From Boothiomyces macroporosus (Eukaryota; Chytridiomycota; Chytridiomycetes; Rhizophydiales; Terramycetaceae), in the NCBI GenBank assembly GCA_027604185.1, contig JADGKB010000068.1:1-64000 (forward strand): a stretch of DNA of 64,000 bases. Reading direction: 5' to 3'. Both the position numbers and the translations under genes were made by a program. Shown here in pieces: positions 3 through 64,000 of this stretch (its first letter is position 1; each line of letters opens with the position of its first letter). The notes below the pieces were generated by a model that saw only the letters and a program-made list of their open reading frames with translations, was not told the origin of the DNA and searched no databases.

Positions 3-941
3 TTATTCATGCTGTTGAATCATTAATGTTTGAATGGCCTTGGAAATAATATTAAAATTGTACTCTACCAACCCCTGCTTTTCAAACTGCTCTTTCCTAA
101 TCAAACAAACTAGTACAAGTTTTCTAATTTAGTGATTCTTACTCATTAATGGTATACAAATATAGCAACATTCCATTATCCAAATGAATTATTGAATTTA
201 ATGGGGTTTCATTTGAATATATAAACGTCATATCTAGAATCACATCAATCATATCCGAGCATAGTTCGTAACTCTGCATATCGACTGTATTAATAACGAG
301 TACCTGGAGAACTATCAGTAGCGATATAAATCTTGCTATTCAAATCAAAAATAAACGCTTTTTCAATCCCTGAATTTGAACAAAACATATTCAATAGATT
401 TTCTAATGCCGGTAATTCTGTAATCAATTTCTGTACAATTTTCGAAAATGCTTCAAAGATAGAGTGGTCGTAGATACTCGTTTGGTGAAAAGATAGATTG
501 ATTTGCTTTTCATTGTCAATCAGCTCATCATTGATTCGTTGGAACACGTCTCTTTGGATATCAATTTTATCGTCATCTGATAATCCATCCACTTTATGAA
601 TAAATATTTCAAATGAAATCTTTGGGTTTTGACTGTAAGCATTCAGCAGAATTGGAATAAGTTTATGCAGCGATTCAATGTAATCATCCTGTGCATCTAC
701 GATATAAACGAGTGAATTTGTAGTAAAGAAATCCAGTTCTATTGAGTCCGGACAGTCCCATACTTGGAAATCGATAAACGAGGAAATATTGATTTTGTGG
801 ATTTTCAAGGTTTGTTCCAGGTAAAGGGTTTCATTGGCTTGCATTTTATTGAAGACTACATTCTGGATACTGGATTTACCTGATCTGGATTAAATTGGCT
901 TACTTTTTCTGTCCCATTAGTAGTATTTTCAACTCATTCAT
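3..941 (-). CDS. GTR2: RagC/Gtr2-type Rag GTPase
   Basis: Small GTPase that pairs with a RagA/Gtr1 partner on the vacuole or lysosome and signals amino-acid sufficiency to TORC1. Splicing three 19-nt introns (885-903, 285-303, 124-142) gives 293 residues. The sequence shows the P-loop GQKKSGKSS near residue 10, FQVWD, VDAQDDY, the Rag-specific HKVDGLSDD in place of NKxD, and the very conserved [13 protein letters not shown] and [15 protein letters not shown] stretches, followed by a C-terminal roadblock-like region ending near IQQHE. The start is the first ATG before the P-loop. Odd point: the switch II region reads WDCPD where RagC normally has WDFPGQ, and about nine residues are missing after it. 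IML1, a GAP-complex subunit for the Rag partner, lies at 27465. The family call is firm; the exact start is likely. Confidence 0.93.
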
Positions 942-1093
942 TTTCAAGATTGAAAAAAGTAAATTTACTTTTGGTAACTTATTTGAATAGGGTTAGGGTT
1001 TTTGATTAACTCTATTTCTACTGTGATAAAGTGGATATCAAGGCAGCTTACTATGCACGAGATTCTTCTGCAGAGTAACACTTTTAATGAAAA

Positions 1094-1993
1094 TCATGAA
1101 TACTTTATTCTTCTTTGAAATTTAATATAAGGTGAATGCAAACCATTATTAAATCCAGCAACCAGTTTTTTCAATCTACTCTTGTCCAGTATCCTAAACA
1201 ATACCCTTAAAGCATCCTTTTCAATGATGTTCTGGTAATGTAAATCCTCTACTATACAATTGGGCAGCTCTATTAACAGTACTGTCAAGTCATTTGGGCC
1301 AATCTTTAATCCAGATAAAAACAGTTTTTGGATTCGGGTTTCTTTAAGTTTGAATGACAAGTACTCCAGACCATCTAAATGAATAGGATTTCCCCATATT
1401 GATAGTGACCTGAGATTAGGTGGCAAATGGTTGCATAAACAAACCAGTCCAGTAGAGGTAATATTATTGTACCCCAACCCCAAAGATTCTAACGTTTGAA
1501 TTCCATTAACCAAATCAAGTATGCCTTCATCCCCGATTCGACATAGAGATAATTCCAATGTCTTTAGTTGCAAATTTATGTTCTTTACGAATGGAGGTTC
1601 GTTATACATGTACAAGTGTGCAGTATTGAATTCTACATGACCAATACCCTGGTCAAATGATCCATTAGTTTTCACTACATCTCCTGCTAATTTGAAATTG
1701 TTTCTTGGTTTTACTATGAGTTTGTTTGTCTTTGGAATATCCAGAATATCAGAAAATACTTCAATTATCGGAAACACTAGAAAGGACTTTCTTATATTAT
1801 GGAATATATCCAGTTGTTTATCTATATACAGTGTTGGCCATATTTTATCGATTTCAATAAAATTTAAAAGGAGGTTAAAGTGGAATAACGAGTTGTTGAA
1901 ATACTTGTTTGTCTTTGATAAGTGGAATATATCCCTAGCTGAAATATACTGTAGTACTAGTATCAACAACTCACTAGGCAATCTTTGAATCAT
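1094..1993 (-). CDS. F-box / leucine-rich repeat protein
   Basis: Intronless 299-residue protein. Residues 1-45 (beginning MIQRLPSELLILVLQYIS) match an F-box: the LP...LL..I and hydrophobic spacing is clear. The C-terminal half has ribonuclease-inhibitor-type leucine-rich repeats such as LETLGLG-like and LRSLSIWGNPI strands. By family knowledge it would be a substrate receptor of an SCF ubiquitin ligase, binding Skp1 through the F-box and the substrate through the repeats; no substrate can be inferred. It lies about 150 bp upstream of the RagC gene on the same strand. Confidence 0.75.
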   Translation of the reverse strand: MIQRLPSELLILVLQYISARDIFHLSKTNKYFNNSLFHFNLLLNFIEIDKIWPTLYIDKQLDIFHNIRKSFLVFPIIEVFSDILDIPKTNKLIVKPRNNFKLAGDVVKTNGSFDQGIGHVEFNTAHLYMYNEPPFVKNINLQLKTLELSLCRIGDEGILDLVNGIQTLESLGLGYNNITSTGLVCLCNHLPPNLRSLSIWGNPIHLDGLEYLSFKLKETRIQKLFLSGLKIGPNDLTVLLIELPNCIVEDLHYQNIIEKDALRVLFRILDKSRLKKLVAGFNNGLHSPYIKFQRRIKYS

Positions 1994-2083
1994 TCTGTGG
2001 CTGTGTTGGAAAGTGTAATTTCAGTAGCCCTAGGTGTATAGAGTAGCCCTAGGGTTCCAATTTAGTATTTATTTAGCCATAAC

Positions 2084-2935: not shown

Positions 2936-2937
2936 TT

Positions 2938-3443: not shown

Positions 3444-3444
3444 T

Positions 3445-3533: not shown

Positions 3534-4216
3534 TTATTCAGAGGGTCTGTTTACTGCTTTAAATGTGATTGTATCCAGCAACTCGGATTGATTATACAAT
3601 TTACCGACCAATTCATCACCATGAACTACTTGCCCAACACCTTCGGGAGTACCAGTCAAAATCAAGTCGCCTTTTTCTAGTTTCATTATAGAAGAAACGT
3701 GCTCAATAATGCGATTAAAACTAGATTAAAAGGATGTACTTGAAGACCATATCTCTAGTATACCCATGCTGCTTCAATTCACCATTCTTGAAGAGTTTCA
3801 TTTCCAAATTACTGGAATTAATCTTTTCCCTCTTGATTAATTTACCAATTGGTGTGAATGTATCGTACCCTTTGGATACAGTCCTGTATTAATACTAGTA
3901 ACCATGGGTTGCCTTTTTCTTTGGCTTCATTTTGTAGATTCCTAGCAGTCATGTCCAAGCACAAGACTATATAATCAATGTACTGATCCGCATCCGACTG
4001 CTTAATATTTCTTCCGTTCTTTCCTATTACTATACCCAATTCTATTTCATGATGAACCAGACAACCTTTCGGAATTTCTATGTTTTCAGGCTGTTGAATG
4101 ATTGAACTTGGAGGTTTGAGAAAGAACAGTGGCTCTTTTGGGATATTGCTGTTGAGCTCTTTTGCATGCTTTGAATAATTCCATCCAATCGCTACTATTT
4201 TCCTGCAGTTTTGCAT
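3534..4216 (-). CDS. FAHD1: fumarylacetoacetate hydrolase family protein (FAHD1-like)
   Basis: Two 19-nt introns (3884-3902, 3721-3739) restore a 214-residue single FAH domain, the usual size of FAHD1 (acylpyruvase / oxaloacetate decarboxylase, usually mitochondrial). Visible landmarks are [15 protein letters not shown], the metal-site [33 protein letters not shown], and [15 protein letters not shown] near the C-terminus. Without splicing the gene looks frameshifted; both introns fall exactly where the conserved frame changes. The ATG chosen directly precedes the conserved core, so a longer targeting sequence from an upstream exon is possible. Confidence 0.9.
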
Positions 4217-5425: not shown

Positions 5426-6339
5426 ATGCATCAATTTTTTCCGCCAAATGAAAATGAAATTGTAAAACTAGAGCTCCAAATAAAAGCTCTTGAAAGCATA
5501 TTGGACGAATATTCAAAGCAAGAACCACCTTTATTATTACGCTGGAGATCTAAAGTGTACCAACTGATGGTCACTCATAAATTTGAAATCCTGGAAAAAG
5601 ACAAGGAAATCAACAGATTGAATGAATTATTGGATAGATGTAACGAAGAAAAAAAAGAAAAAAACGTGGAGATTCAAGATTTAAAGAATCAGATTTTATA
5701 TAAAGATTCTCTAGTATTAGATTTAAACAGTCAAATCAATCAACTACAAAAAGATAATAGTCAGTTGGAAATAGTGAATACAAAAGAAAGAAATCGATAT
5801 GGAAAGATTAATGAAATGAATATAAACAAAATCAAACAGATACAAGAGTAAGTTCAACTAATGTAGCCTAGTGAATATTGAACTGAGTAATTTATCGAGC
5901 AACATTAATCAGCAGCTGTCAATCATAGATAAGCGAGTACAATTCGCTACTGATCGCTTATTAATGCTCAAAAGTAAAAATATTTAACATAGGTATAAAA
6001 GAACAAGAAGCAAAGAATTTTGAATATGTTAAACAGGAAAAAACTTTGCTTGAATTGGAAGTAGTGCAATTGCAGAAAGATCGGAAAACACTATTGAATC
6101 AATTGTTGAATACAGAGCAACCTTTGAAAGAACTGGAGAAGCAAGATGCTTGTGAAACTGGTTTAGTAGACAGGATTAAAGAATCGAGTTTAACAGAGAC
6201 TAAGGAAAGTGGAGTGAAACAAGAACCAATAGATAAATTAAAAACAGACAATATCAAAGACTCTCAAGTAAAGAAACTAGAAAAGGATAAATTAGAAGCT
6301 TTGGATCAGTTGTCTGAATTGCTATTAAAAATAGTTTAA
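5426..6339 (+). CDS. coiled-coil protein
   Basis: Two 19-nt introns (5848-5866, 5974-5992) join three exons into 291 residues. After the short motif LLLRWRSKVYQLMVTHKFE, nearly the whole protein is charged heptad coiled coil. That motif resembles the RWRxKVxxLMV segment I associate with the centriolar protein CCHCR1, which would fit a flagellated cell, but the match is short and the call is tentative. Divergent from the membrane-protein gene with about 260 bp between them. Confidence 0.6.
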
Positions 6340-7381: not shown

Positions 7382-8807
7382 ATGAATTTATTTTCATTCC
7401 TTTTATTTACATGTAAAATAATACTAACCAAGTTTCCCTGGCTGCTGGACAAACTTCCGCAAGTGTTCCCGGCACCATTCAAGTATTTGGCAATGCTGAT
7501 GGCCAAGGGAATGTAATTATCACAGTACATGCTGCTGCGAAAGGTTGGGTGTCAATTATGAATGGAGATAATATGGAGGGTACCCAAGTTATCGTTGGAT
7601 GGAACAACAATGGAAAGTACATGATTTCAGATAGGAAAAGTACTGCAACTATTCTTCCTCTTCCGTTCCCTAACACTGCTTCAAAAATAACTACTCTTCA
7701 AGTACCTGCTCCTAGCTGGGCTAACTTGGCATTCTCATTCACCAGACCGCTTTCAAACACAGATATAAAACTAACGAATTCAAGCATATACAGTTATGCC
7801 TATGCTGACCATCCTGTTCGTACACCTACGGATCCTAATACTTCATTTGATATTCATGATAGACATGGAGGGTTTGGTCCTTTGGATTTTACAACTCTTA
7901 AAGTCACCAACAGTAATGGAACTGTTCCTGCACCGAAAGTAGTTGCTGGACCTAGTAGCGGAATTCTTGTTTTGCCAGATAACTTTTCTTATTCCACTCT
8001 TGTTACTGTTCATGCTTACTTGCTAATGTTTGCTTGGATAGTTTGTCCTTTTATCGGAATTTATATAGCCAGATACCTAAAGACTGCTCTTGGTATCTGG
8101 TGGTTGCGTTTACATACTCTGTTCATGTTGGTTGGTGTTTGTATTTGCTCTGTCACTGGTATCTTGTTTATTTTCTTGTATCGGCCTGGGCCTCACTTTG
8201 GGATGGATGGAAATAACCCACACAAAGTAATTATTTCTAATGATAGTTGATTGGTATACTTGTTACTGGTTTATTATTTGCACAAATGATACTGGGTGTA
8301 GTTTCTGATCAACTGTTTGAAGTTAACAGAACTTCTATTCCATGGTATGATCGAGCACATTGGTGGTTGGGAAGGTTGACTTTTTTGGCTGCCTTGGTGA
8401 ACATGTACTTTGGATTTTCTCTGTTCAAGAGCAATTTCGGTTCTGATATGGCTTCCTACTTGCCATATGTAGGATATGCATTGGCTGGAGTGGGCGTATT
8501 GGCAATGATTGCTGGACATTTCATTCATGGTGGACAAGATAGTAAATGCTGATTAACAATAGATCATGTAGCCCCACTTGCAGAACCTGTCAAGCAAAAC
8601 GATTTCAAACCTCCACCAGACTATGAAGACCGTTTTCAAAACAGATATCCACCACAAGATAGAAATCCAGATCGATATCAATCTAGCGACAGATACAATT
8701 CAAGTCCTAGATCCCCTGGAGGTTACACTCAAAGACAAGAAAGGCAACGAACACAGGAAAGGAGAAGAGATGACAGATACAGAGAAGACAGAAACTACCG
8801 GCGTTGA
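7382..8807 (+). CDS. secreted DOMON / cytochrome b561 membrane protein
   Basis: Introns of 20, 20 and 21 nt (7413-7432, 8227-8246, 8542-8562) give 454 residues. Order: signal peptide (MNLFSFLLFTFSLAA), a DOMON heme-binding domain (about 20-190), five or six transmembrane helices of a cytochrome b561 core (about 215-375) with candidate heme histidines in VHAYLLMFAW, LRLHTLFMLV, NNPHK and DRAHWWLGR, and a cytosolic Arg/Asp/Tyr-rich tail. By family knowledge such CYBDOM-type proteins move electrons across the plasma membrane to extracellular acceptors such as ferric iron. Removing the first intron restores the signal peptide, which supports the model. Confidence 0.88.
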
Positions 8808-8942: not shown

Positions 8943-11669
8943 TCAAGAATCATTGCCGCCCTTGCCGGCAGTCATATCCACAACAACTTGGTGCTTGATA
9001 TTTTCCAATTTAGTTTGTGAAGTTCTACATTAACAATAATTACTGTAAATCTCTGGTTGACACTTTATCCTCTGGAATATGCGTAATACCTTGCAGCTTC
9101 AAATTACCCCTTTTGTTAGTTTCGCCTTACCAATATTCTCTGTTTTTCGCAAGTCTACTTATTATTGATGGAATTGTTTGGTATGAATCTAACGCTCCAA
9201 ATAGCGGTTGCACAACGTAATCAATAAACCCGATTTGGCAACTGGCAACATTAACGTTATCTCTGTCCATGTAAGGAGAAACTGGGAGACTAAGCTTCTT
9301 TTCCAGGTCGCCTTGGCATACGAATTCAGTCATTATCAGCCTAGTCCACTGTTTATAGATTGGGAGGTCTTTTGTAGGGTTAGAAACGTCAGAACATTTA
9401 ATCATAATTTTGAATAGTAGCATACGGTCTTCTCTGGTTTCGTATGGATCAAATGTCTCTGCACTGGCAACTTTGGATTTGAACATTGAAAGCAGAGCAA
9501 AATGCTGAGTTAAATCTACATTAAACTCGTCTACCTGTTGCTAAAACTAGATCGACAACTATTTCTCGGATTGATTTAAATTCTGCTTTAGTCAAATGTG
9601 CTAAAAAGTTGTTTTCTGATCTGGCGAGTACTACAAACGAAGAAGCAGAATGATGGTTTTCTAGTACTGCTTTGTCATTGTACAAAATAGCTTTTGGGTC
9701 GGAAGTAGCAACTAAAAAGTTGTTTGTGTAGCCTGGATGATCGTGATCATGAATTATAGCAGCAAAGTACATTCCAAGAAGCTCAATGTCTGACCAGATA
9801 TCTTTAATTTTTGTGGTATTTGCTAAACAATGGATGCAGTGTAGTACGTCTGCGGCATGAAGAGAATTATGATCTAGAATTAATTAATGATTACATGGTA
9901 AATCAGCATGGTAGCCTTTTTCGATAGAACTGATGCAATTTCCAAATTTGTCTAGAGGTATGAGAAAAGCTTCAAATAGTTTTGCCTGAGCAAACAAGTG
10001 GTGCGAGAGTACCATCAATGTTCTATTTCCTGTAGCCCGGGCTAATTCAAATAGGTTAAAGTCGTAGTCGTTGTATCTAGATAGTAAATTTGCAATTTCT
10101 TCTATTTCTGGTGGATATACAGCTCTAGGATCTTGCGCGATATTGGAAATGCGTCTATCGTCCCCTGTGAGCTGAGTGTTTGCGACCGTTCCAGTTGCTG
10201 CTTCAGGCTCTGCTGCCGCTGGAGTGCTTTCTTCCTCATTGGTTGGGGCTTTCACATTAGTTGTAGGGTTCTCAGCTGTAGTGGACAACCTTCTTCTGTA
10301 GTTTGATTTTCCTCTGCCCTTCCTCCTTCTGGCGGCAATTTCAGAAAATAGCCATGCCTATAGTTAAAAGAATTGTACTTGTTGTTCATTATCCATAGAA
10401 TCGCCTATTGTGCTTTCAAAATCAGGAGTAAGCAAATTTGAAGAACCAAGCAGTGATGTTACTTGCCCAAGAGCCAACAAATGGCGTGAAGACAATCCTG
10501 GGTCTGCCATCACTGATCTTATAACCATCATACTCCTTTCTAATGGAGATTCAATAGACTTTACGGCCTTTTGATTATACGATTTGGCTAATGTCAAAAG
10601 TTGGTTTTTAAGCTTTGCATTGTGCTTCTTCATATCTTTGGACATTAAGAATTGCATTCGGTAGAAGTGTTCCGTTTCATAAGAAGTGAATGTTACTACT
10701 CCAGAAGTGATAATTATACAAGCAAAGCCCAGACCAAAAGCCCCGTAAACTTCACTTGGAATATTACCATTCAAAATCATTGCAACGATATTCATGATTA
10801 TCCATACAAAAGTGATTGTTCCCACTGTTAGTAGAGTATGAATAAATCTAGCCCTGACACCAAAGAATGACAGGAGCAGCAATGAAGTCATAACCAATGT
10901 TGGCTGCAAAAAGTTTAGTTGTGCTTCGAGTACAAATGTTCTAACTCCAACCCCAATAAATATTTGAAAGAACACAACCAGGGACGTTACCAAGTCGATT
11001 GACTCGTAAAAAATTTGTGGTTTGATGTAATAACATGAGCCCAAGCCAAGAATATAAGGAACAAGCACCACTACAAACCAAAAGGCAGCATCGTAAATGG
11101 GATCATAGGAGTTGCAAATGTAATTAGGATTGCATTTGTTGCTAAGATAAAAGGTAACTTACCAATAAATTCCAGTGGGGCATGTGATAGTAGCACCGCT
11201 ATTAATTGTAGGTAAGTATAAGGATGAGTATTGGTCATAGCCAATGGTATCGCTCGCTATAAAATATATATATAACACCGAGAGGACAGAGAATAATGCG
11301 GTTAGAGTTTTCCGCCATCTAGCAAGATTTAATGCTACAAAATAACTGGAAAATTCTGATTCCAAGTCTGGAGATCTGAATGACAAGAATGCGGATAAGA
11401 GTGAAGCATGATCTTCTAGTGTCTGACTCTCCGTCACGTCGTTTCCTTCATTCTTTAGCTTATCAGGTGAAGTCGCCATAAATGAATCTCTGCGTACTGA
11501 ATCTAGTTCGTCTTGTTGGCCAGGGTGCTGTTGTACTCTGACTTTATCTAGGAATTATACTTTAGAAACCTGTAAATGTAATCGTCTTTTTCACTTCCAT
11601 TCCTTCGTTTACTTCTGCGCCTGATGATGCTTTTGGAGATATACTCATATGACTGTTTTGCTTATTCAT
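8943..11669 (-). CDS. membrane-anchored cyclic nucleotide phosphodiesterase (class I)
   Basis: Seven introns of 19-22 nt (11548-11569, 11142-11162, 10358-10378, 9874-9894, 9516-9534, 9110-9130, 9025-9043) yield 860 residues. The N-terminal 90 residues are hydrophilic. Then come about six transmembrane helices (about 95-330), a low-complexity linker, and a class I PDE catalytic domain (about 500-830) with the metal-binding HNSLHAADVLH, IIHDHDHPGYTN and the downstream KCSDVSNPTKDL. It should hydrolyse cAMP and/or cGMP at a membrane. The architecture differs from fungal soluble Pde2. All seven introns fall where the conserved frame breaks, so the model is well supported; the first ATG is the least certain part. 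Confidence 0.9.
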
Positions 11670-11792: not shown

Positions 11793-12505
11793 TTATTTCA
11801 GATTCCATTGATATTTTTGATTTCCAATCATGCAGTAGATTTCGCCAACAGTAATGTCAATCGGATTTGACAGCATCAAAGGAATTGCCTCAAACTTCAA
11901 AGACCCACTTGTCCATGCAATTGAATAGTGGAATGAGGGGTCCTAAATTAACGAAAACTACTTTGTAGTAGGTCGGCAGTTTGTATTGAGCAAGAATAGC
12001 ATTGATTTGATCTACCAAGCTAGTAAGAATATCGCTTCCGAAGCCAATATCAACCGATACAAAGCTCTTTGAGTTGTCATCATTATTGTAGTTTCGTATC
12101 CCTCTAGTCCGCAGTGTGAAGCTATAATCAAAATTATTTACCTCTGCTGGTTGCGGAATATCTTGCCCAGCTTATCCAGCAATCCAGAGATATGAAATAC
12201 TTTTAAATTCACCGTTCGTGACAGGCTAATGTGAATATCCTCAATCACTTGCAATTCCGGGCATAGCTTCCTCGCTTCCAATAAAACTGTTGAATTCAGT
12301 TCTCGCAGCTCGTCATGGTCAACTAGGTCAATGGTTCTTACTTTCAATGTAGATAAACGTTGGCTGATTAAGCAATCCTTACCCAGTTGCCCTGTGTTCC
12401 TCTCTCTTTTGCCTCACTTGGAAAAGCGGGAATCTTTATTTTCTTATTTTGCGGTTTAATTTCCTGTTCATCTTCTGACGACTCGTACTGTCTTATATTT
12501 TGCAT
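11793..12505 (-). CDS. USB1: U6 snRNA 3' exonuclease USB1
   Basis: Four introns (12364-12382, 12323-12341, 12122-12141, 11943-11961; 19-20 nt) give 211 residues. Both catalytic HxS tetrapeptides of the 2H phosphoesterase fold are present: DIHISLSRTV and PSFHYSIAW. GNW precedes the fold as in USB1. The enzyme trims the U6 snRNA 3' tail and leaves the terminal phosphate state needed for LSm2-8 binding. The second intron sits only 21 codons into the conserved part, and the unspliced frames otherwise stop. Divergent from the SH3 gene with only 30 bp between start codons. Confidence 0.92.
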
Positions 12506-31946: not shown

Positions 31947-31974
31947 ATTTTCACTTTTTTCCAAATTCAAAAAA

Positions 31975-49055: not shown

Positions 49056-49086
49056 TTTGGCGAATGATAAATTTTGCAAAATTAAA

Positions 49087-50519: not shown

Positions 50520-53500
50520 TTATGATACAGCAAGATTTAACCAAGAAGTTATTCCATCGAAAAATCCATTCACCCGTCCCAACAAACTCCTTTCTTCAGC
50601 TTCAATATCTGGATCAGCTTCTTCAATGCTTAGTCTTTGCTGGTATTTCAATCTTTGTAGTAAAGCTTTTTGTTGCTTCCCTTGGTCTTTCCTCAGGGAT
50701 TCAAAGTTGTTCCCTTTTATCCAAGGAAGAGGAAGTTTACCGATTAATGCTGGGTGCATGTAAGAATGTAGCTGACAATCTTCCTCGACATCATCAACGA
50801 AAAAGTTGTCAGATTCTTCACCATATTTTAGCATCGCAGATTCAAGAGGGACATCAAGAATGCCGGCTACACGAGTCATTGGGGGTTCAATGTGGCTACT
50901 CATAGTATCTGGAGGTGTGTTCAACTGTTGATATCCAGAACCACTTGATTGGTCTAAAATGGGATTGATTTCTGAAGGATCATGGAAAGGGTTAAATTCA
51001 GGATTTGGTTGTATGATATTAAAAGTACTGTAGCGCTTATTTGGTATAAGCTCATCTCCTGAAGAGGAATCTTCAGAAATATTAATTTGAATTTGATCTT
51101 GCTGATATCTGTTTTTCATTGACAGTGATGACATTCGACTTTTCAATTTTCGGTTGCTTCTTCCTTCAAATCCTGCTAGTTCTTGCTCAAATAACAACTC
51201 TGGCTGGGTGAGTTGACTTCCAGACGGTTCGCTGTGCATCACATTTCCTTCACCCTGCTTTGATAGAGAGCGCATGGCTTTTCCAATAACTTCCAACGGG
51301 ATATTTCGAATTTGCTTTTCGTATGCATCATTTAGCAATTTGTAGGCAAAGAAGGTGAGGAATAACAATGGAATCACTCCAATCACCATCTGCGCGTAGG
51401 CAGACAAGCTTTCAATACTTCCTAAGCTGCTTAAAGTGCTGTATGATCCTTCCTCTGCTGATTTTAGTGCCAAGACACCCATCATTGACAACTGCATAAT
51501 TGCGACTCCAGACAAACACCTATTGACTACATAGGGCGTGGCCACACCCTTTGATTCATAAAGCGGAATATGGACATACATTAGCAAATATTTGTAGATA
51601 AAATATCCCAGCGCAAAAAAGAGGGTGCAGAAAGGCAATATTAAAGGCTGAATGGAGCTATACATGATGCCAATTATAAACACCTGGATTAATAATGGCT
51701 GTACCAATATAGGTAACGGGTAAACAATCCCATAATGAATGACAGTCAATATTGAAGGATAGTATGCATCTGAAGTTTGGCGCGGTGTACTCTTCTGCAA
51801 AGTAGTTAGACGGTACATCCATGTCAGGAATAAAGGGGCGGCAAGAAGCAGTTGCGCAGGAAGAATTGCTGTGCTTTGGAGGATGATTAAATTAATCAGA
51901 GTAGTCGCAGCCTTCATTAATATCAAGTACCTTGGGTAACATTTGACCCAGCTTTTCAAGGAGCTTTTGTGGATTCCATAAATTAATTTCGTACAGAATA
52001 CTTGCAAATTGAATTACAATCACATTCCACAATTGATAAAAGAAATACCTAATGTTATCTTTAATTACTTTGATAACAAACTAAGTTGGATCCAACTTTC
52101 TGCCTCAATACCTTGAAGTTGACATAGAACTAGGATTAAAATGAGTTTACTTAATAGGACACTTGGCAAGAATGAATTCCAAGCTGCGATCAACGTAGTC
52201 GAGATTACTCCTTGGATGAATTGAATCCAAGTGGGAGTTAAATCCGTTAGGATCGGTTTAAGAATGGGAAGGAGCACAGCAAGCTGTTCCAAATCGATCA
52301 GCCCTGCAAATGAAGTTATAACACTAGTAGAAAATAGAACCAACAGCGACATTACCGTCATCACGAAAATCATTCGAAATAGTTTGGTGTAACTGTGGGC
52401 TGCCTTTGAAGATAAATTTGTCCAATATATATCCCTTGGTTCTGGGGCATTTTTCACTATGCATGCGAATGGATCCATATGGCTCACTGCCTGACTGACA
52501 ATAGCTGCTGAAATTGGAGATTCGAATGAAACAATTCCGATAGAAGTCGCAGCGCTAAGATGAGGATTTCGTCTAAATCTTTCTACCATCGAATCCCAGT
52601 GCCTAAAGTTTGCCACATAGTTTTGGGTAGAATCGACTCTTTCACCAAAAAGTCCCAAGAATCCGGTTTTGTGAGTTGGTCTGTACTCTGGATCGATACT
52701 ATTGTACCTGTTTAAAATCTCCTCTATTGCAATGTCTACTGCAGACATTTGGGGGTTGTTAAAGGAGGTAGCTTCCGGAATCACAAACGCCCGTTCAAGT
52801 TTGGGCAGCTTCTCCAATTGAAGACACAGTTTTTCAAGCTTTTCAAGATAATACAGCCTTTTTTGCACCGCTTGTTGTAGCAAAGACCAATTCCTACAAA
52901 GAACAACATTTTCTACTTTACCAACTTGCAGATTATTGAAAAAAATTGATAGATTAACCTCATTTTGCAATTCTTTTGGGATTCCGAAAACCATCACACT
53001 TCGCATTTCAATTTTGCTCAGTTTCGTCCTTTTTAAAGCGTATTCGTCATACTGCAATTTCAAAGTGAGATACCCGCGATAGAAAACAATCAAAAAGCCA
53101 AATGCTGCAAAAGAAATAACCCATGTGCAGCCCAAGATCATCTTCAGATAAATAGATCGTTGAGGTACCTGCGTTAATAATTGATACATTTTCAATCGAC
53201 AATGACGGGATCATTATTGCCTCCAGTTGGTAGTATCCTGTAATATTTCGTAGATCTGGCGGATTCGAATAGAAATTGATAGGGCCAATTACGCCAGCTC
53301 CGAAAATCGTCAGCATAAAGAACAACTGATATCCCATTTTCAAGAATCGTAAAAACATCACTCCATCCAGACCGACAGTATTAATCAGGAAGCTTTCTGA
53401 TGTGGAATATACTGTAAATATCCAGGATAGTATCCCATGAGATAAACTTGGCGGTCTTCCTCTTGAAAGCATTTTCCTGGGAGCATAAATGTCTGCTTGC

Positions 53501-53706: not shown

Positions 53707-56306
53707 TTAGAAGATATCTTCTCCATGGAGTTCGTAGACATATTTTGCTTCATTCCAAATTGTGAGAATACGCTCATCGGTCACTGATCCAAAGACAATT
53801 CCATCGATTGTGAATTTCAACTTGTCAATTTCAACTTGGAATTCCCTAGTCATTTGCCTAAAGAAGCCAGAGACCCATCTCCAATATACAGCATCTTCAG
53901 GCGTAATTGCAGACAACACTTCAACGAATTTCTCATTAGATATATCTTACCTGCATACACAAAATGAAAGTGTCTTTTCTTTCTTTCTGCGCGGCTTCTA
54001 GAGCAGCTTCCAGAGAGGCAGCACTTTCAACAACGTCATCTGTATTAATAAAACTTACCGTTCATCATCTCGTCTGTTTGATGCCTCTGCTTTTCTAGCC
54101 GGATGGTTATTTGCTCAACTCTTACCGTTAATTTGTTCAGTGTGGTTGAAAGGATATTCCATACAAAGAACTTTGTGCAATTCTTTTCCAAGTTTTCAGA
54201 AGAGAGCAGCCAAGTAATAATTGCTTTTGCTTCAATGATTTTGTAGTTTACTAATTTGGTGAGGATAATCTCCAAGAATTGCGGGTTCTTTTCCCAAAAG
54301 GCTTGTGTCACTCTGGTGGTCAACAGCTGGCGTTCTTCGTCTTCATTGATTTTTTGCAAAAGAGGAAGATATCTTTCAACTACATCCAACAAATGGGAAA
54401 AGGATTTACTTCCTTGATACATGATGCATTGCAAGAATGCCTCGTGAGCATTTTCATAGGAAGTCTTTCCAATAAACCTTTCAGAGAAGTTTCCAGAGCT
54501 TTGAGAAATATACTTGTCGATAGACGTCAAAACTTCTTCAATCAGCGCAGTATCATCTCTGTGAGAAATCTTTGAATTCAATTCTCTGACCAAGTCAAAC
54601 AAGTTGTCATCTGCAACAATGTCGGATTCTTGGAACGAAAACAAGAAACTTGGTGCAGATGTAGAAAAGATTTGGCCATGGAGCTCAAAGCTTTCTGGAA
54701 TGCTGTTTTTGATACGATCATAATATGCCAGTCGCACACAGTTCTGCAAAGTTTCTCTTACAAAGACAAATTTTCCACATGTTGGGTCGGCATCCAAAAC
54801 ATATTCCCTAATGTAAATTAATGAGAACCATTCCGACCATTTCCAGGAATATCCAAAGTTGCTCAAATGACGAGCAAAAAAGTCGCTGAATCTTTTAATA
54901 CACTCGACATCCATTCCACCGATTCCATTTTCACTATCCAGTCTGGCAAAGAGCAACTTAATTGATCTTCCCAAAACACTAGGGATTTTGTCCAAAGATT
55001 CTTTGCAAAGATCAATAATAAGAGTGGAATAATAGACAAATCGTTCATGACACTTTGGAAGTCTAAACATCTCTTGGAAAATCGCTTCAATAACTGCTTC
55101 GTAAACCTGGATTGCTTGTTGCTCTATGTAGGAAGTATTGAAATATTGTTCAGTATTCAACAGAATGAAAGCACATTCTTTATGGTTCAAAGAAAACATT
55201 CTGATAATATCGATGATTGAATCTTCCAATATATGCCTGGATAATTGCGTTGTTGAAGGCAAATTGCAGATTTTTTTCTAAATTTAGAGAATCTTACATT
55301 GCCGGCAATGTTAACTCCATCATCAAAAATCCAAAATTTCGATTGGTACAAAAATTTCACCTGGGTGACACTTGATGGGATTGTAATCACTGGGATATCA
55401 TGCGGAATCTGGCGACTGTTTGCTTCAGCAAATTGTTGGTTGTAGTTTGGAAGAATAGGTGTTTCCCAATTGGAATTCTTTAAATTCATAGTTTGTTCCC
55501 ACAACAAAGCTAATTTCTAGAATTAGATCCTATTACGTCCATAGATTCATAAGGTTCTCCTCCAACGCAATCCCTATATACCAGCAATGCGTTGTTTGCA
55601 GCTTTTATCCCAGTTGAAACTGCGTTTTCGGCTCTTGTGGTCATATAGATACCAATTTCACCCATAATTCGTTCCAGTTCCATAAGATTTCTATCTCTCA
55701 ATTGTACTGCAGCCCAGGGAATGGCAGCCATAACCACATACACAAATGCATCAGCCCTTTCCTGATTCACGTTAATTTCAGATGCCACAGCGAGAAAAGT
55801 ATCAAACAAACCAATTAGTTGGCCAGGTAAGATTACCCCAGCGTTTACACATTCTGAAAAATATCGAATGACCAGCTTGATTTGCCTAAATGAAGATGAT
55901 TCCAACCCAGCATTCAATAATTCAGCAGCAGCGACAATCATATCTTGCCCAATATCGAAATTCCTTGCATTCAAGATTCCAGTCAAAGTGCCGTATAGTG
56001 AAATATTAAAGGAAATTGGAAGGCAAGTTTTCCAGGATTTAATGAAAATATCGCGGGATTCGTATTCCTTTTCCAATAGATCCGCCAAGTGCTCCAAGTG
56101 CTCTTGAGGTTGATGCTACTGTTAGTTATTCATGTACTTTATCTCCAATTTTGAAAAACAGGGAAACTATTCGTTCATTCTGTTCCTCTTCCGGACTCTT
56201 GATCACCACAGGATCTTCCTGGTATTGTCCTGATGAGCTGTATCTTTTCTTGTAACTTTTGTAACCTCTTTCCCTATCTTTTTGTCAATTTTATTTTCTT
56301 ACTCAT
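53707..56306 (-). CDS. CBC1: nuclear cap-binding protein subunit 1 (CBP80)
   Basis: Introns 56278-56302 (25 nt), 56116-56137, 55517-55536, 55278-55297, 54040-54058 and 53932-53950; about 824 residues. MIF4G-type helical repeats align with human NCBP1: SLYGTLTGILNARNFDIGQD, LLWEQTMNLKNSNWE, VIEAIFQEMFRLPKCHERFV, FFARHLSNFGYSWKWSEW and VFVRETLQNCVRLAYYDRI. It binds CBP20 and the m7G cap of nascent RNA and promotes splicing and export. The proposed first coding exon is only ATG-A before a 25-nt intron; the downstream frame has no other ATG. That first exon is the weakest part of the model. Confidence 0.92.
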
Positions 56307-56579: not shown

Positions 56580-57161
56580 ATGACAGAAGATAAAGACCGA
56601 CCAGAAAGAGTTGAACATCACAAAGTGGTAGTCTCCAATCTCACCCCAAAAATCAACGATAATCACATAAAGGAAATTTTTGGAAAGTTTGGAAAAATCA
56701 ACTATTCTGATATTTCAGAGAAAAAGTTGGGTATTGCTTGTGTTAATTTAGGTAATGGAGAAATATCAAAGAAAGCCTACGTCTCATTCGCCACTAGGGC
56801 TGATGCTGAAGAAGCGATCAAGCATATGGACAAAGGGGTTATCGACAAAGCTGTAATAGAGGTTTCATTCTTCACTCCCTTCAGAAGAGATCGACCTCCA
56901 AGAGGAAGGGAATATGGCCAATTGAGACGTAGATACAGTCCAAAAAGAAGGTCGCCTTCTCCAAGAAGACACGAACGCTCTCCGCCAAGACGCTATCGTT
57001 CTCGCTCTCGCTCCCCAATCCGCAGACGCTCTCCTCCAAGAAGAAGGTCCGTTTCGCCTGAACGGGAAAGAAGACCTCGCAGGTCCCCATCATACTCTCC
57101 AAAGAGAGGCAGAGGTTCCCCATCTTACTCTCCTAGAAGAAGTCGCAGCCGTTCTCGCTAG
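56580..57161 (+). CDS. RNPS1: RNPS1-like SR protein
   Basis: Intronless, 193 residues. One RRM (about 14-98) has RNP2 VVVSNL and a degenerate RNP1 KKAYVSFA, and IKHMDKGVID resembles the RNPS1 KHMDGGQID. A C-terminal RS/RSP-rich tail follows. RNPS1 is a peripheral exon-junction-complex and splicing activator; other one-RRM SR proteins are possible. The 273 bp to the CBP80 start contains a T-run (CTTTTTTTTGTTTTTCTG) just before the ATG and otherwise nothing I recognise. Confidence 0.75.
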   Translation: MTEDKDRPERVEHHKVVVSNLTPKINDNHIKEIFGKFGKINYSDISEKKLGIACVNLGNGEISKKAYVSFATRADAEEAIKHMDKGVIDKAVIEVSFFTPFRRDRPPRGREYGQLRRRYSPKRRSPSPRRHERSPPRRYRSRSRSPIRRRSPPRRRSVSPERERRPRRSPSYSPKRGRGSPSYSPRRSRSRSR

Positions 57162-57246
57162 TAGGTTGAATAAATAAGTATTGTAACCATAAGGTGGTGC
57201 TGTTTTATCATACATGTTCTGAATCGATTTTTTTTTCACCACCAAT

Positions 57247-58405
57247 ATGTCAATGCCAGGTTTTGGAGTTGATACTCCTCACTTGTCGTCCAAGTTGGAG
57301 CAGAGATTGAAGAAAGCTCATGAAGTACTATCTAGAAATAGAACTTCATTATTGCTGACGTTAAAATCTGGAGAAAAGCTTTCATATGCCGAAGTGGGAG
57401 ATAGAAACGGGATTCCAACGCTCTGGATCAACGGACCTACGGCGAATCGATTTCTCATCGCTTTATATGACGAAGTTTGTACTGAATTGGGTGTGCGTTT
57501 AATTTCATTTGATCGGCCTGGAAGAGGAGCTTCATCACCTTTGAAGGACCCTAAATATTGGACATTTGCCAGTTTTGCAGGTACTTGATTATTGACAAGA
57601 TTATATTGACGAAGCGACTGATTTGTTGGAAATCCCAAAGTTTTATGTGGTTGCGCATTCGTTTGGTACTTCATATGCACTTGCTGCCTATGAAAAGCTT
57701 TCACACAAGATTATTGGCGCATTCAGATTCCTAGCTACTTGGGCACCTTCTAATTTACCTTGCATGCCTTCATCGTATGCCCTGCAACGATCACTGCCAA
57801 CATCGGCGTTGCGCACCTTGACTTCCATTTCCCAGTCTTCGTGGTTAGCATCCCTTACTTCTACCTCAGTGCCTTGCCAAATGGGAGCTATTGGTGCGAG
57901 GGAAAAGGATATTTTAAACGACGGGTATAGCAAACGAATTTTAGAAAAGTGCAAGTTAGAGCATGATGGAGATAGTTATAAAGCCTATGAATTGGATTGG
58001 CTATTAGCATTAGAAGTCCAACACAAATTCTCTTTTGATCACCGAAAACTAAAGTGTTCAGTTAAATGTTGGCACGGAATGGATGATTCTATCACTCCGT
58101 TAGGAGCCGCAATGTGGATGCAAAGGGAAATGGATCACTTTTTATTATACGCAGTAGAGGGAGCTACACATAATATTCATTTTGATGGGGCAATCGTCAA
58201 GGCTGTTTTTGCAGATATTTGCGCTGATGCTTTAGCCCGCAAGGCCAAAGAAACAGAAGAACAAGCACAGCAGCAGCCGGCAGTAGAACCAACGAATGAA
58301 GAGACTCGGCCAGCTGCTACTAATGAACAAAATGTACCCGAACAAGCATCTGTCCAACCTCCAGCACCACAATATCCTGAAGAACAAAACGTTTGGCAAC
58401 AATAA
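57247..58405 (+). CDS. alpha/beta hydrolase
   Basis: One 19-nt intron (57581-57599); 379 residues. Hydrolase landmarks: SFDRPGRGASS, the nucleophile elbow AHSFGTSYA, an acid in HGMDDSITP and the His in EGATHNIHF. The C-terminal ~60 residues are low-complexity Glu/Gln/Pro/Ala. The substrate is unknown. A T-run box (CGATTTTTTTTTCA, 57225-57238) lies 9 bp before the ATG. Its stop codon is 5 bp from the stop of the convergent PRL gene. Confidence 0.85.
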
Positions 58406-58410
58406 ACAAT

Positions 58411-58995: not shown

Positions 58996-61648
58996 TTAAG
59001 AGTACAACTTTCCATTTTGGAATGCCGAGACAAACTTTGGGACGTCCACCAATATTTGACCAAATTCTGGATCATCCTTGGTCTTTTTGCTCTCCCCAAC
59101 TCGGACAATAAAGTCAAACTTGTTCCACATGACATCAGTCTCCAACATTGGTGTAATTCCGAACGCCTGGACTGCTGCAGAGTTGACCATTACGGTAAAG
59201 TAAGTTCTGTCGTGCGCGATACGGATACCTGGACCCAAAGGTTTTGTGGCCCTCAACCAAGGAATAAAGGCTATAATACACATGATGAGAATGAAAAGCT
59301 CTATAATTACAAACGCGATGCCCATACCATATCCAAAATCCGATATGTAAATAATCAGATAATCAGGATTAATTACACTTTGCGGACACGAGTATCCTTT
59401 TGAAGAAAAAGATCTAAATACTCCAGACCGGAGTAATATTCCAATCATTGTTTCTATCCCTGGCTCCAGAATGGCTGGATCCACTGCAATCATGTTGGTC
59501 GTAGTCCACCACATTAGTGGATTCACTGCTCCATTATATGTCTGAGGCAATAGGTAAAAGGATGTTTCCCCTTCCAGAATATTTACTAGAGATTGATATA
59601 TCCATGTAATATTTGCAGTATCGCCGACATTTAAAATATGGGCGTTAACAGCAGCTATTGAAGCTGGCGAACCATCCGTGGCAAACTCCATTGAAATAGT
59701 TGCCTTTTTGTGATCATATATCTGAGTTGTACATATTGGGTAGAGACGTACATTTTCAGCTGTCATCGCGCAAGCTGTACTGCCGGTCAGTATTGTAGTA
59801 ACATTAAAGCCGCCATTTTGTGGAGTGGCTACATTTGAAATGAACCCTGTTTTGGTAAAGTCTTGAGGGGGAGCAGCAGCGTACATTGCGGTAGCGGTAG
59901 CTGAATCGTAACCGATAGATTCCAGTGTTTCAATGTCAATATTGGCAGCGCATATGCATGATGTACTTAGAGTGGTTACAAATCCATCACCTTGAATGAC
60001 CGTTGTCAAAGATGCTGCATCAATAAGCTGTGGGGAAATAATGAATGTAGTTACATTTACCTCCTGCTCTGACCTTAGAATACCAAATGAGTTTCCAAAA
60101 ATAAGCTCTCCGACTCCCATAGCAGTTTGAACTTTGGGATACCCTCTATCATATAGGTATCCTTCTTCGTCAAAAATTTCACAAGTGAGCGTTCCAGATA
60201 GATACCTGAAATCTTGATAGCTTAGAGAAGCTGCTGCAAAAATTGGAAGCAGAGCTGCAACCAATTGTAGCAACCAGAACAGAGATATTCTTGAAAGAAA
60301 TTTTCTGGAAGGACTTCGATATCCCAATTTACTAGCAAACGATAGCTTTTGTAAATGACCGGTATGTACAAACCCACAGGCAGCCAAACTAAACCCTCGT
60401 TTTCTGGTTATAAAATATCCAATCAAAGCAGATGCAGCATCGTTCATTGCAAATATGGTAAGTTCATAAGTTAGGTGCATCCAAAATTCAAGTATAACCA
60501 ACCCAGAATGCCTAAATGATTCTCCGCTAAATGTGATTAGCAGTCCGCCAGGGCTATGAAGCACGATAAATAGACCCAGTAGTAATAGATTGGATAATAA
60601 GGAAATAAAAATCCAAGCCATTTGGATCAACTTTTTATCCTGCAGCTCCCTCGCTGTGGCCGGGCTTCCATTACTGCTGGCTCTGCTTTGTGCAAGTGAG
60701 TGACTAGATTTATTCAGATTGGAGACACTTCCTTTGACCAAACTGTGTTGGGAAAAATTTCTCGAACCAAAGGGATTACTAGCATAGCCCGCATCCAATA
60801 GCGACTGCATTTGTTCACCGTCATCAATAAATGCACTTTTTACAATACCTGAATTAACACGTAGTACCTTTTAGCTGACCGGTATGCTCATCCACTACCT
60901 CCTGAGCTGCCTCTTTTGAAATATATGTCCTCAACGCTGCAGGATTATCAGCAATACTGATTCGTCGATTTGGATCAAATCCCATGGCAGGAGGAGGTTT
61001 TTTGGATTTAGATATAGACCTTTGAGCAAATTCTTGGCTATTTCCGCCTCTTCCGCTCCTGATACTGTGCTTCCTATCCAATGGAGAGATTGGTGAGGGA
61101 CTGCTAGAAGGCGGGTCGTGTTTAACTTGGTCTTGGGATGGTTTAGTTCCTATACTAAGTCTGGCAACTGGTGCGACATCTGCAAAGTTGGACTGTCTTT
61201 GAGAAAACGAACCTCCGTGTACCATCCGTGTATTTGGTGTTTTGGCCAGGCTCGAAAAATCTTGATAACTCATCTTTCTATTCATGGTTATTGGATTGTT
61301 TGAGGTTGGTTTATTTAGGGAATTAGGTTCATTTCCTATGTGGGGGCTGGTTCCAATCGACTCTTCTTTGGACATGTTTTGTGTCTTTCCGAGTGGAATA
61401 TTTTCACCGATATCCATTATATGCTGATCGACCCGAACCCAATCGTCGCGAGAAGATTCTGGAGGAACTTCTGAGGTACCTTCACCTGTTTCTTCAAGTG
61501 GTGAGAAATTCACACCCTTCTTCCTGAGCTGCTCCACTGCTCCTCCAATCGGGTCCAATTTCTTTTTCAGCATTTGAGATTTGTTAATCTCTGGTAAGTT
61601 TGAATTAGAGTTTTGGTCGGTGATGTCTTCGGGTTTTCCTTCATCCAT
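58996..61648 (-). CDS. large membrane protein with cysteine-containing ectodomain, unknown
   Basis: One 19-nt intron (60849-60867); 877 residues. Residues 1-320 are disordered, Ser/Pro-rich and probably cytosolic. Hydrophobic helices lie at about 337-357, 380-410 and 450-475. An extracellular-looking domain of ~290 residues follows, rich in Thr/Ala with several Cys (STSCICAANID, SCPQSV), then a final helix (YGMGIAFVIIELFILIMCII) and a 70-residue tail. No family recognised. The layout suggests a surface receptor or channel-like protein peculiar to this lineage. Confidence 0.75.
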
Positions 61649-61667
61649 TTTTTAGTTGTTCTAAAAA

Positions 61668-61673: not shown

Positions 61674-61681
61674 GGTGACAA

Positions 61682-62473
61682 ATGCTATATCCGGATTCCT
61701 CTTCAAGCGTATCTCCTGAATTTCAAGAAATCGCAACTGAATATTATTCACAGATTTCAATAGAATATCGAGATTTGCAATCTAAATCTACTCACAAGCG
61801 AACTGCATCGTATGAACCATACGAGGTAATTTTTGGTCAAGTGAAAGATGCAGTCAAGTTAGGACTTCAAATACCACAAAAAAACACCTCAAAGACTAAA
61901 AATACCTTGAAAACACGTAGCATCAAAGAATCTGACTCTGAAGAACTATTTTCAGATGGTTTGGATTGGGAATCAGAATCTGACAGCGATTGTGATTGCG
62001 AATCTCTAATAGAATTCCGCACAGATGGAGAATTTGCATCTTTACAGAAGGTGGTTGAAACTATGACTGAAAAACTCGATGAAGTTGTAAAAGTTCATAA
62101 TCAGGTAGAACTAGACCAACACTTTCAAAGTGAATTGTTGAAATCAAGTATGCTTGCTGACTTTCACGAAAGATACATTCTCAAGGCGTTAGAGAGACGC
62201 AGATTGGAAAACGACACTATCGAAAACATCAAAAACGATGTAAATTTAGCCCAAAGCGTTTGGAACGAAACCCTTCGAGCTAATCCAATGCAAGTATTAG
62301 AAAATATAGGCAGGAATCTTCCTCCAAAAGAGGACGATATTGGTCTAACTGCCACGATTCACGAAATGGAAGAACTGGTAGAAATCTCTGATTCTTCAAA
62401 GGAATATTCGAAATATATTCCTTCATTTGCGACTAGATTGAACGTAGATGACAAACTCTTTGACCAAAACTAG
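61682..62473 (+). CDS. acidic helical protein, unknown
   Basis: Intronless, 263 residues. A Ser/Asp/Glu-rich acidic stretch (about 80-115, DWESESDSDCDCESLIEF) precedes helical regions (TMTEKLDEVVKVHNQVELDQ, ILKALERRRLENDTIENI). No family recognised. Its neighbour CFAP52 is convergent, with 49 bp between stops. A nuclear or cytoskeletal scaffold is possible but unproven. Confidence 0.65.
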   Translation: MLYPDSSSSVSPEFQEIATEYYSQISIEYRDLQSKSTHKRTASYEPYEVIFGQVKDAVKLGLQIPQKNTSKTKNTLKTRSIKESDSEELFSDGLDWESESDSDCDCESLIEFRTDGEFASLQKVVETMTEKLDEVVKVHNQVELDQHFQSELLKSSMLADFHERYILKALERRRLENDTIENIKNDVNLAQSVWNETLRANPMQVLENIGRNLPPKEDDIGLTATIHEMEELVEISDSSKEYSKYIPSFATRLNVDDKLFDQN

Positions 62474-62522
62474 TTTTAATAAACACTGCTAACTTAACCG
62501 ATATTTTATTATAACTAAAAAT

Positions 62523-64000
62523 TTATGCTTTTGGCATTTGCCATTGGAAGATGGCACCTTCAGAACTAACAGAGACTACAAAGTTTCCGTTTGGGGAAAT
62601 TCTAACTTTGGTAATATCAGTCGAGTGGCCCATACCAACTGAATGCAATTCTCCTTCTTCATACCTGTATACTTTAACAATCTTATCGCTGCCGCCGACG
62701 ACAAACAATTTGCCGTTTTCTGTAATATCCAACCCATTAATTGTATCACTTTGACTTGCTTGAATTTCCCTTATTAGCGAACCATCAAATGCTTCCCAGT
62801 ATGCTACTTTTCTATCAGTTCCCGAAGTCAATAGTTGAGATTCGTCTGGATAGTAGCAGCACGCGTGGAAGAACGATGGAGCGAAAAGCACTTGGTTTCT
62901 AACGTATCTAGTCAGATCCCAAATGATGCAAGAACCATCAGAAGAAGCAGACACACATTCATATCCATTCTTACGGATTTTTATACAAGTAACTGTTCCC
63001 TTGTGCTCTTTCATGGCATGATCCAATTGCTGCGTTTGTTTGCTGATCTTCCAAACTCGCACTTGTCCATCTGGGATTAATTTAAATACTCACCTTCCCC
63101 ACCAGATACAATTCTGAAATCACCGCGGTTATTGTAGGCGTCGGTAACTGCAAGCGCAGTTACTACTCTTTTATGTGCATCATTGATAACATATTGCAAT
63201 CTACCAGACTGTGGCCCAAATGCTCTGATTTTTCCATCGTTCCACCCAGTTATAAGAGAGCTTCCATCTTTCTTGAACGTAATACATTGGCATTCCAAGT
63301 TAGGAACGCTAATTCTTAACAGCTCTTCTTTAGTGTTTGCATTCCACAAACGAATGTCGCTATCAGATGCAGTAGCAAAAATGTCGCTTGATTCACTGAA
63401 ATTAGTGGTATCTTACGTTGGGAAACATACATCGTTGATTCTTGAATAGTGACAGGTAGTGATTAAGGTAGGTTTGAAATCTTCAACAGAAACCGAATAA
63501 ATGTTCGATTGGGCGGTTCCGGCATGGAATTTGGTTGGAGAGTCAAATGAAATTGAAGTGACACTTCCACTAACTTTTGTGGATCTAAAATTAATAGAAA
63601 TTACTTTAGGATATTCAAATTTGGCAGGCCCAATACTGCAATTGTTCCATCACCACATCCAGCTATAACAGAATCACCCTTTGGCGACAGAGCAGTCGAT
63701 AAGATTCCCAAACTAAACAAATCCTGTTGTTAACCTCAAATACCTTTTCTTTTGGTGGGCCGGCTTTTTTGAACAGTTTTGATTTCAAGCTGACTTGCTG
63801 TAAATCCCCAGTTGTAGTTCCACAGTACATGTACTCGTCATTTTCGTCAACTGCAATACATTTGACAATACGTTTAATTTGGCCAGTTTGGCAGTTTGTT
63901 GCTCGGACCTTTCTCTTTTCAGCGTTCAATTCCCAAACTCGCAATGTTCCTACACCACCAGTTACAAACTGAGTGTCGCTCTTGTTTAAATAAGCCAAAG
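62523..64000 (-). CDS. CFAP52: CFAP52/WDR16 ciliary WD40 protein (partial)
   Basis: The gene runs off the right edge; the N-terminal part is outside. Introns read: 63724-63743, 63585-63604, 63396-63416 and 63071-63093 (20-23 nt). WD40 repeats align closely to CFAP52: GTLRVWELNAEKRKVRATNC, GQIKRIVKCIAVDENDEYMY, CGTTTGDLQ, ELLRISVPNLECQCITFKKD, VINDAHKRVVTALAV, KEHKGTVTCIKIRKN and LTSGTDRKVAYWEAFDGSLI. CFAP52 is a doublet-microtubule inner protein of motile cilia and flagella. Its presence implies a flagellated life stage. Confidence 0.96.

Follow-up and report, generated by a model that had tools for sequence, protein, structure and literature searches.

Predicted ultrashort U2-type introns of 19-23 nt in the chytrid fungus Boothiomyces macroporosus

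Introduction

Ultrashort introns were previously known from ciliates, a nucleomorph, dicyemids and mikrocytid parasites. In the source extracts cited here, intron lengths are given as 18-21 nucleotides (nt) in the Bigelowiella natans nucleomorph, 15-16 nt in heterotrich ciliates and 16-17 nt in mikrocytids (PMC10245619), as well as 20-33 nt in Paramecium and 21-29 nt in Nyctotherus (PMC2633312). In the 15-nt introns of Stentor coeruleus, the branch-point adenosine (branch A) is nt 10, and U2AF1, U2AF2 and SF3B subunits are retained, according to the extract of PMC9505925, while that of PMC2483917 describes Paramecium, the B. natans nucleomorph and dicyemids as lacking a branch signature. A genome table covering sanchytrids is found in PMC8371127. 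The present analysis concerns the introns of a 64-kb stretch of contig JADGKB010000068.1 (the whole stretch analysed, hereafter the window; GC about 34-41% in 4-kb steps) from Boothiomyces macroporosus, whose genome comprises 15.2 Mb on 216 contigs. An earlier note on the window had proposed a genome-wide class of 18-23-nt spliceosomal introns in a flagellated fungus-like organism. The organism is indeed a chytrid (Chytridiomycota, Rhizophydiales, Terramycetaceae), the window carries a CFAP52 gene, and nearly all U2-type spliceosomal introns predicted in this genome have very probably shrunk to a minimum of 19-23 nt.

Results

Intron lengths in the window

The intron lengths were determined with a Viterbi gene finder based on codon usage, ATG and stop codons, in which introns were permitted only as GT..AG. 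When all lengths of 10-300 nt were given equal weight, 42 of the 89 introns called in the window clustered at 19-23 nt. With a flat prior of 10-60 nt and GT..AG as the sole intron signal, 60 of 87 measured 18-23 nt, with the peak at 19-22 nt. When GT..AG was exchanged for each of 47 other donor/acceptor dinucleotide pairs, between 2 and 21 introns of 18-23 nt were called, a comparison to be read with the fact that the codon table had been trained with GT..AG. The highest control, TA..GA (21 introns), represents GTA..AGA seen one base shifted, and the second highest gave 13. GT..AG ends thus exceeded chance against these pairs, and they did so in pattern counts as well. Since the peak emerges with GT..AG alone and a flat prior, it is not a product of looking for it.

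The trained model, which used learned end signals and lengths, produced 37 gene models in the window, 31 of them intron-bearing, with 99 introns (31 of 19 nt, 29 of 20 nt, 22 of 21 nt, 12 of 22 nt, four of 23 nt, one of 25 nt and none of 18 nt). This agrees closely with the earlier note, which had counted about 100 introns in about 28 genes (about 28, 31, 21, 13, four and one in the same length classes). The two 18-nt introns of that count were not recovered: three 18-mers in the window satisfy a loose motif, none is used by the trained model and none is convincing. Several of the 99 introns look weak, for example 31921-31939, 56278-56302, 48953-48971 and 56929-56947. Left unspliced, 77 of the 99 introns would disrupt the frame and 21 of the remaining 22 would introduce an in-frame stop, counts that are raised by the preference of an ab initio finder for introns that shift the frame or hold stops. 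The spliced totals are all multiples of three, as had been noted before, but any such model forces this, so it does not constitute independent evidence. Scans of the window with Rfam (gathering threshold) and for tRNAs gave no matches.

Three segments required individual reading. The two halves of a SART3-like gene can be joined only through a 42-nt intron at 23182-23223 (-), as read by eye against the Boothiomyces protein P0071. The statement that no ordinary-length intron is needed therefore holds for nearly all introns, which are ultrashort, but fails here. The same 42 nt can also be read as a 19-nt tiny intron split by a 23-nt one. It is possible that this is an intron within an intron, and it may equally be a plain 42-nt intron; in flat-prior calls from the window and the 20-contig sample described below, no peak near 42 nt appeared elsewhere. 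At 54808-54828 (-), in the gene for the nuclear cap-binding protein CBP80, lies a silent 21-nt intron, which holds no stop, keeps the frame and was missed by the finder. In the GMP synthase gene, homology demands the omission of a 22-nt segment at 46793-46814 (+), GTAATACTTTCTTTAATTTTTG, which would be either a GT..TG intron or the result of a base error in an AG.

Genome-wide extent

The ultrashort class was seen on 20 other contigs, sampled at 10 kb each (200 kb in total), and in a pattern count over the whole genome, in line with the genome-wide extent first proposed. A flat prior of 10-150 nt, run on the sample with the codon table from the window, gave 104 introns of 18-23 nt, 16 of 12-17 nt, 6 of 24-29 nt and 81 spread over 30-150 nt. 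A joint model of the window and the 200 kb, using signals and a length prior, comprised 144 genes, 115 of them with introns. Of its 345 introns, 336 measured 18-24 nt (60 of 19 nt, 132 of 20, 81 of 21, 50 of 22, 11 of 23 and two of 24) and nine fell outside this range. In the joint model, 19-nt introns make up 25 of 92 in the window and 35 of 244 elsewhere, the excess lying mostly in the first 16 kb.

The window holds 33 copies of the pattern GTAAN{6,10}TAAYN{2,3}AG, where shuffles give 2.7. Over the whole genome, matches number 7,509 for this pattern and 2,013 for its reversed form. As the forward pattern recovers 31 of the 99 window introns, a rough extrapolation, (7509-2013)/0.31, which assumes equal sensitivity elsewhere, leads to about 17,500 introns or about 1,150 per Mb. 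The earlier figure of hundreds per megabase was, if anything, low.

Intron anatomy

About 90% of the 336 joint-model introns begin with GTA, and TAAN is found in 272 and TAAY in 234 of them, which bears out the GTA start and the TAAY/TAAA before the AG that had been described. The donor resembles GTAATT or GTAAAT with little preference at position +5, the introns are rich in A+T, the base preceding the terminal AG is mostly T or C, and a G precedes the donor in 169 of 336. To keep the assessment of the branch motif free of circularity, it was confined to the 180 introns of 18-23 nt that a flat length prior had yielded with no input on motifs. YTRA followed by 4-7 nt after its A occurred in 141 of these 180, compared with a mean of 26.2 and a maximum of 45 in shuffled interiors, and in only 22 of 87 calls of other lengths.

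In the 142 introns with the motif 4-8 nt from the end, the putative branch A is located at nt 14 (57 introns), nt 15 (67), nt 16 (15) or nt 17 (3), and the distance from it to the 3' end, including the AG, is 4 nt (4 introns), 5 nt (53), 6 nt (69), 7 nt (15) or 8 nt (1). One distance does not vary with the other (r 0.05), as far as the length class and the restriction to 4-8 nt allow this to be judged. With mostly 5-6 nt from the branch A to the 3' end, there is no polypyrimidine tract in this interval. The length can be read as set by two minima, about 14 nt from the 5' splice site to the branch A and about 5 nt from there to the 3' splice site; their sum, 19 nt, is also the shortest common intron length.

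Scans for noncanonical ends gave 4 calls for a GC donor, compared with 1-3 for five other donors, and 6 calls for a TG acceptor, compared with 2-7 for five other acceptors. These numbers do not establish a noncanonical class, and only single cases are reported, read against homologues. Tiny GC..AG introns were observed by eye in the U2AF1 gene (L051, G000:C1:324250-325150) and, from the GC-donor scan of the other-contig sample, at L002 1882-1901 and L004 9151-9170.

Homology across the junctions

By-eye alignment was carried out for 37 of the 99 window junctions, from nine genes that have good homologues, a junction being called gapless when at least one homologue showed no gap within 4 residues. 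This was the case for 34 of the 37. In the phosphodiesterase gene, Batrachochytrium and Gorgonomyces concur at five junctions; the SART3 homologues come from close relatives (Boothiomyces, Terramyces), which makes that test weaker than the phosphodiesterase one. Of 772 residues, the CBP80 of the window shares 771 with the protein deposited for Boothiomyces macroporosus, and the deposited protein uses four of the predicted introns, so the public annotation already contains some such introns. The deposited protein translates the silent intron 54808-54828 as FSLIYIR, a stretch missing in seven of the eight aligned homologues from other genomes, the eighth being that of Globomyces.

Proteins of relatives point the same way. 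Exactly at junction 9874-9894, a single Tyr of the window gene and of three other chytrids is replaced in the Terramyces protein P0074 by CNKQLTID, eight residues whose back-translation is compatible with a GT..AG intron of 21 nt that has a TTRAC-type branch motif and lies in the same codon phase. The Globomyces protein P0002 has YLIENNNR at the site of the silent CBP80 intron, which fits a 24-nt GTA..AG segment, and VQKKFVLNTQ (30 nt) elsewhere. The deposited Terramyces and Globomyces proteins thus seem to contain translated tiny introns. The models of Boothiomyces JEL0838 and JEL0866 (P0071, P0072) omit the exon between introns 21181-21200 and 21074-21096, as would happen if a single, longer intron had been annotated.

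Splicing machinery

The earlier note had suspected a loss of U2AF1, SF1 and SF3B subunits. Genes for U2AF1, U2AF2, SF1 and SF3B1, the only SF3B subunit looked for, were all found. A genome search also detected two copies of U2 snRNA with GUAGUA, a U6 snRNA carrying ACAGAGA and a U1 snRNA candidate that begins AUACUUACCUG; the recognition sequences of all three are canonical, and the branch motif of the introns matches the GUAGUA of U2. The SF1 gene encodes helix-hairpin, KH and zinc-knuckle domains, and SF3B1 is represented by its N-terminal part, since the locus ends there. In the U2AF2 gene model, the tandem RRMs (211.9 bits) and the C-terminal domain both match U2AF 65 kDa structures, and the region near the N-terminus matches a U2AF 59 kDa chain. 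U2AF1 was found with a degenerate pattern and read by eye from 0.9 kb of DNA, where both CCCH fingers and the intervening domain are present. Four tiny introns interrupt the gene. The model supplied those of 19 and 20 nt; the other two, a GC..AG intron of 21 nt and a GT..AG intron of 19 nt, were recognised by eye. A zf-CCCH search for U2AF1 gave 17 matches with loci for 14; neither the models there nor one further match appeared U2AF1-like, and one locus had no model at the match.

Two unrelated searches returned identically scoring hit pairs 42-45 kb apart on one contig (G000:C20:74242 and 119309; G000:C36:45043 and 87227), which are either local duplications or a feature of the assembly.

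Gene models of the window

Models with a homologue or a family assignment are as follows; the counts give gapless junctions.
3..941 (-), Rag GTPase C/Gtr2-like; introns 885-903, 285-303, 124-142; 3/3.
3534..4216 (-), FAHD1-like; introns 3884-3902, 3721-3739; 2/2.
7382..8807 (+), DOMON / cytochrome b561 gene; introns 7413-7432, 8227-8246, 8542-8562.
8943..11669 (-), cyclic-nucleotide phosphodiesterase; introns 11548-11569, 11142-11162, 10358-10378, 9874-9894, 9516-9534, 9110-9130, 9025-9043; 6/7.
11793..12505 (-), HVSL-family gene; introns 12364-12382, 12323-12341, 12122-12141, 11943-11961.
16706..18470 (-), GTPBP1-like; introns 18241-18262, 16821-16841; 2/2.
19603..20740 (-), SHNi-TPR (NASP-like) gene; introns 20441-20462, 20063-20081, 19750-19769.
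20804..23540 (-), SART3-like 'Splicing factor', two models joined; introns 23320-23338, 23182-23223 (42 nt), 23034-23053, 22344-22363, 21845-21865, 21477-21495, 21381-21401, 21181-21200, 21074-21096; 7/7 tested, close relatives only.
26487..27441 (-), sulfurtransferase; introns 27160-27179, 26956-26974, 26759-26780; 3/3.
46163..47831 (+), GMP synthase, two models joined; introns 46436-46456, 46793-46814 (GT..TG), 47094-47114, 47310-47330; 3/3 GT-AG junctions.
53707..56306 (-), nuclear cap-binding protein CBP80; introns 56278-56302 (doubtful), 56116-56137, 55517-55536, 55278-55297, 54040-54058, 53932-53950; 5/6, four of these also in the deposited protein.
62523..63830 (-), CFAP52, 5' part outside the window; introns 63724-63743, 63585-63604, 63396-63416, 63071-63093; 3/4.

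The following gene models come from the trained model only.
5426..6339 (+); introns 5848-5866, 5974-5992.
12536..13266 (+); intron 12765-12784.
13311..14965 (-); introns 13982-14002, 13448-13467.
15104..16659 (+); introns 15404-15422, 16038-16056, 16153-16173, 16395-16415.
18665..19577 (-); introns 19484-19505, 19320-19339, 19055-19074, 18763-18782.
23856..26471 (+); introns 26012-26031, 26156-26175, 26350-26369.
27465..34798 (+), probably two genes joined, to which the doubtful intron 31921-31939 may be an artificial link; introns 27681-27700, 28299-28318, 28501-28522, 29795-29815, 29949-29967, 30575-30594, 30897-30916, 31384-31406, 31645-31665, 31921-31939, 32060-32078.
34993..36774 (-); intron 35771-35791.
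36884..38705 (-); introns 38091-38112, 37762-37783, 37467-37488, 37147-37168.
39846..40887 (+), ArfGAP-like by eye; introns 39964-39985, 40152-40172, 40315-40335.
41115..42548 (-); introns 42456-42476, 42304-42322, 42117-42136, 41724-41742, 41316-41335.
44083..45831 (-); introns 45488-45507, 45078-45100, 44969-44988.
48945..50490 (+); intron 48953-48971 (doubtful).
50520..53472 (-); introns 53169-53187, 52130-52150, 52049-52068, 51912-51930.
56580..57177 (+); intron 56929-56947 (doubtful).
57247..58405 (+); intron 57581-57599.
58996..61648 (-); intron 60849-60867.

Discussion

The spliceosomal nature assigned to these introns by the earlier note is supported, and a U2-type identity is indicated because of the GT..AG ends, the placed YTRAY, the homology restored at the tested junctions and the genome-wide occurrence. 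Several observations weigh against this explanation. The introns are predicted from DNA and protein sequence, and the 42-nt intron together with the single GC-AG and GT-TG cases shows that the class is not perfectly uniform. Three of the 37 junctions are not gapless: the last intron of the phosphodiesterase gene and the first of CBP80 lie in variable stretches, and one CFAP52 junction stands beside a 2-residue gap. The U1 match, at 68.8 bits, is just under the family cut-off of 69.5, and the exon-by-exon family match of U2AF2, at 230.7 bits, is under its cut-off of 310.3. Finally, a RED_N search for RED, a helper of short introns in humans, gave no match, with the control genomes equally silent.

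It is exceedingly improbable that the segments are not introns at all but sequencing or assembly indels, programmed frameshifts or DNA elements excised before transcription. Such a reading could draw on the fact that the introns are known here from sequence only, but the sharp 19-23 nt lengths, the GT..AG ends, the placed branch motif and thousands of copies on many contigs led to the rejection of these candidates, and the presence of intron-recognition factors also speaks against them. A sizeable, overlooked second class of ordinary-length introns, which would make the genome a mixed one, is improbable too. In favour of such a class, the 42-nt intron had to be added through homology, nine of the 345 modelled introns lie outside 18-24 nt, and the trained model penalises other lengths and covers coding introns, not those of untranslated regions (UTRs). 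However, the flat-prior calls of 30-150 nt are thin (81 over 121 lengths) and form no second peak, and the same holds for the calls up to 60 nt.

As regards mechanism, the ordinary U2 spliceosome would remove the tiny introns. While U2AF1 would read the AG, U2AF2 may bind instead to U-rich sequence lying upstream of the branch point, or exert its effect via protein partners. The main mechanistic rival accepts the same introns and would have their 3' splice sites read without U2AF, by a route resembling that of SPF45/RBM17, with SMU1-RED stabilising the short distance from the 5' splice site to the branch and U2AF serving other tasks. The lack of room for a polypyrimidine tract past the branch point fits this route, as do the roles of SMU1 and RBM17 in human short introns described in the extract of PMC12862383. 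Since the U2AF1 and U2AF2 genes are retained and look complete, we consider such a route unlikely. The missing RED_N match would also count against it, but given the silent controls it is no proof of absence.

The relatives may extend the conclusion of a U2-type intron minimum beyond one species. The seemingly translated segments and the omitted exons suggest a trait common to the clade; in the gene sets of Boothiomyces, Terramyces and Globomyces, introns may have been translated and exons may be lacking. The introns probably became ultrashort before the lineage parted from Terramyces, and perhaps before it parted from Globomyces. It appears somewhat more probable than the opposite that one chytrid clade, made up of Terramycetaceae and Globomyces, independently shrank the introns of its intron-rich genome to the two-ruler minimum, with a conserved branch sequence and the complete canonical recognition machinery. 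If so, this would be the first such fungal case, an ultrashort and intron-rich state with a conserved, anchored branch motif, and the gene models deposited for the clade would include translated introns and leave out exons.

Structures of the yeast spliceosome are known. A fungus with genes for U2AF1, U2AF2, SF1 and SF3B1 and a sharp branch motif allows the smallest workable spacing of 5' splice site, branch point and 3' splice site to be tested in an organism close to the yeasts, and provides a fungal test of how small introns can be. In the open-access literature, judged partly by title, no earlier report of ultrashort nuclear introns in a chytrid or another fungus was found, and one may have been published outside it. 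Within the reach of these searches, Boothiomyces is the first fungal case of a known class of ultrashort introns.

The predicted intron lengths of Boothiomyces are close to the shortest known in any organism. The following comparisons refer to the extracts cited. The B. natans nucleomorph shares a nearly identical length class, many introns per gene and a weak 5' splice site past GTA (PMC10245619, PMC2483917). However, it is a relic endosymbiont nucleus for which those extracts report no branch signature, whereas Boothiomyces has a clear, placed YTRAY in a 15.2-Mb fungal genome; the CBP80 identity of 771/772 to Boothiomyces macroporosus likewise separates the window from chlorarachniophyte nucleomorphs. 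Mikrocytids also have near-uniform ultrashort introns (PMC10245619), but they are intron-poor (224 in M. mackini) with a strongly reduced spliceosome, whereas Boothiomyces probably has thousands of introns, and all searched recognition factors except RED are present. With lengths of 19-23 nt and with SF1, U2AF1, U2AF2, SF3B1 and U1 found, Boothiomyces does not belong to the mikrocytid type. Paramecium and Nyctotherus resemble it in being intron-rich with nearly all introns tiny (PMC2633312), although their introns are slightly longer, and no branch motif is given for Nyctotherus in that extract, unlike Boothiomyces. As in Yarrowia, Giardia and Trichomonas, the branch motif stands at a near-constant short distance from the AG without a 3' polypyrimidine tract; that anchoring is discussed for intron-poor genomes, whereas the anchored branch of Boothiomyces occurs in an intron-rich one (PMC2483917). 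Stentor shares the genome-wide occurrence, the fixed place of the branch A, the 5 nt to the 3' end and the retention of U2AF1, U2AF2 and SF3B subunits (PMC9505925). Because it already unites ultrashort introns, a fixed branch place and retained U2AF, none of these is new by itself. Its distance from the 5' splice site to the branch is 10 nt, against 14 nt in Boothiomyces, and its branch is described there as lacking a strong consensus, whereas that of Boothiomyces is clearly conserved. The distinguishing feature of Boothiomyces is thus a conserved, placed branch sequence in an intron-rich genome.

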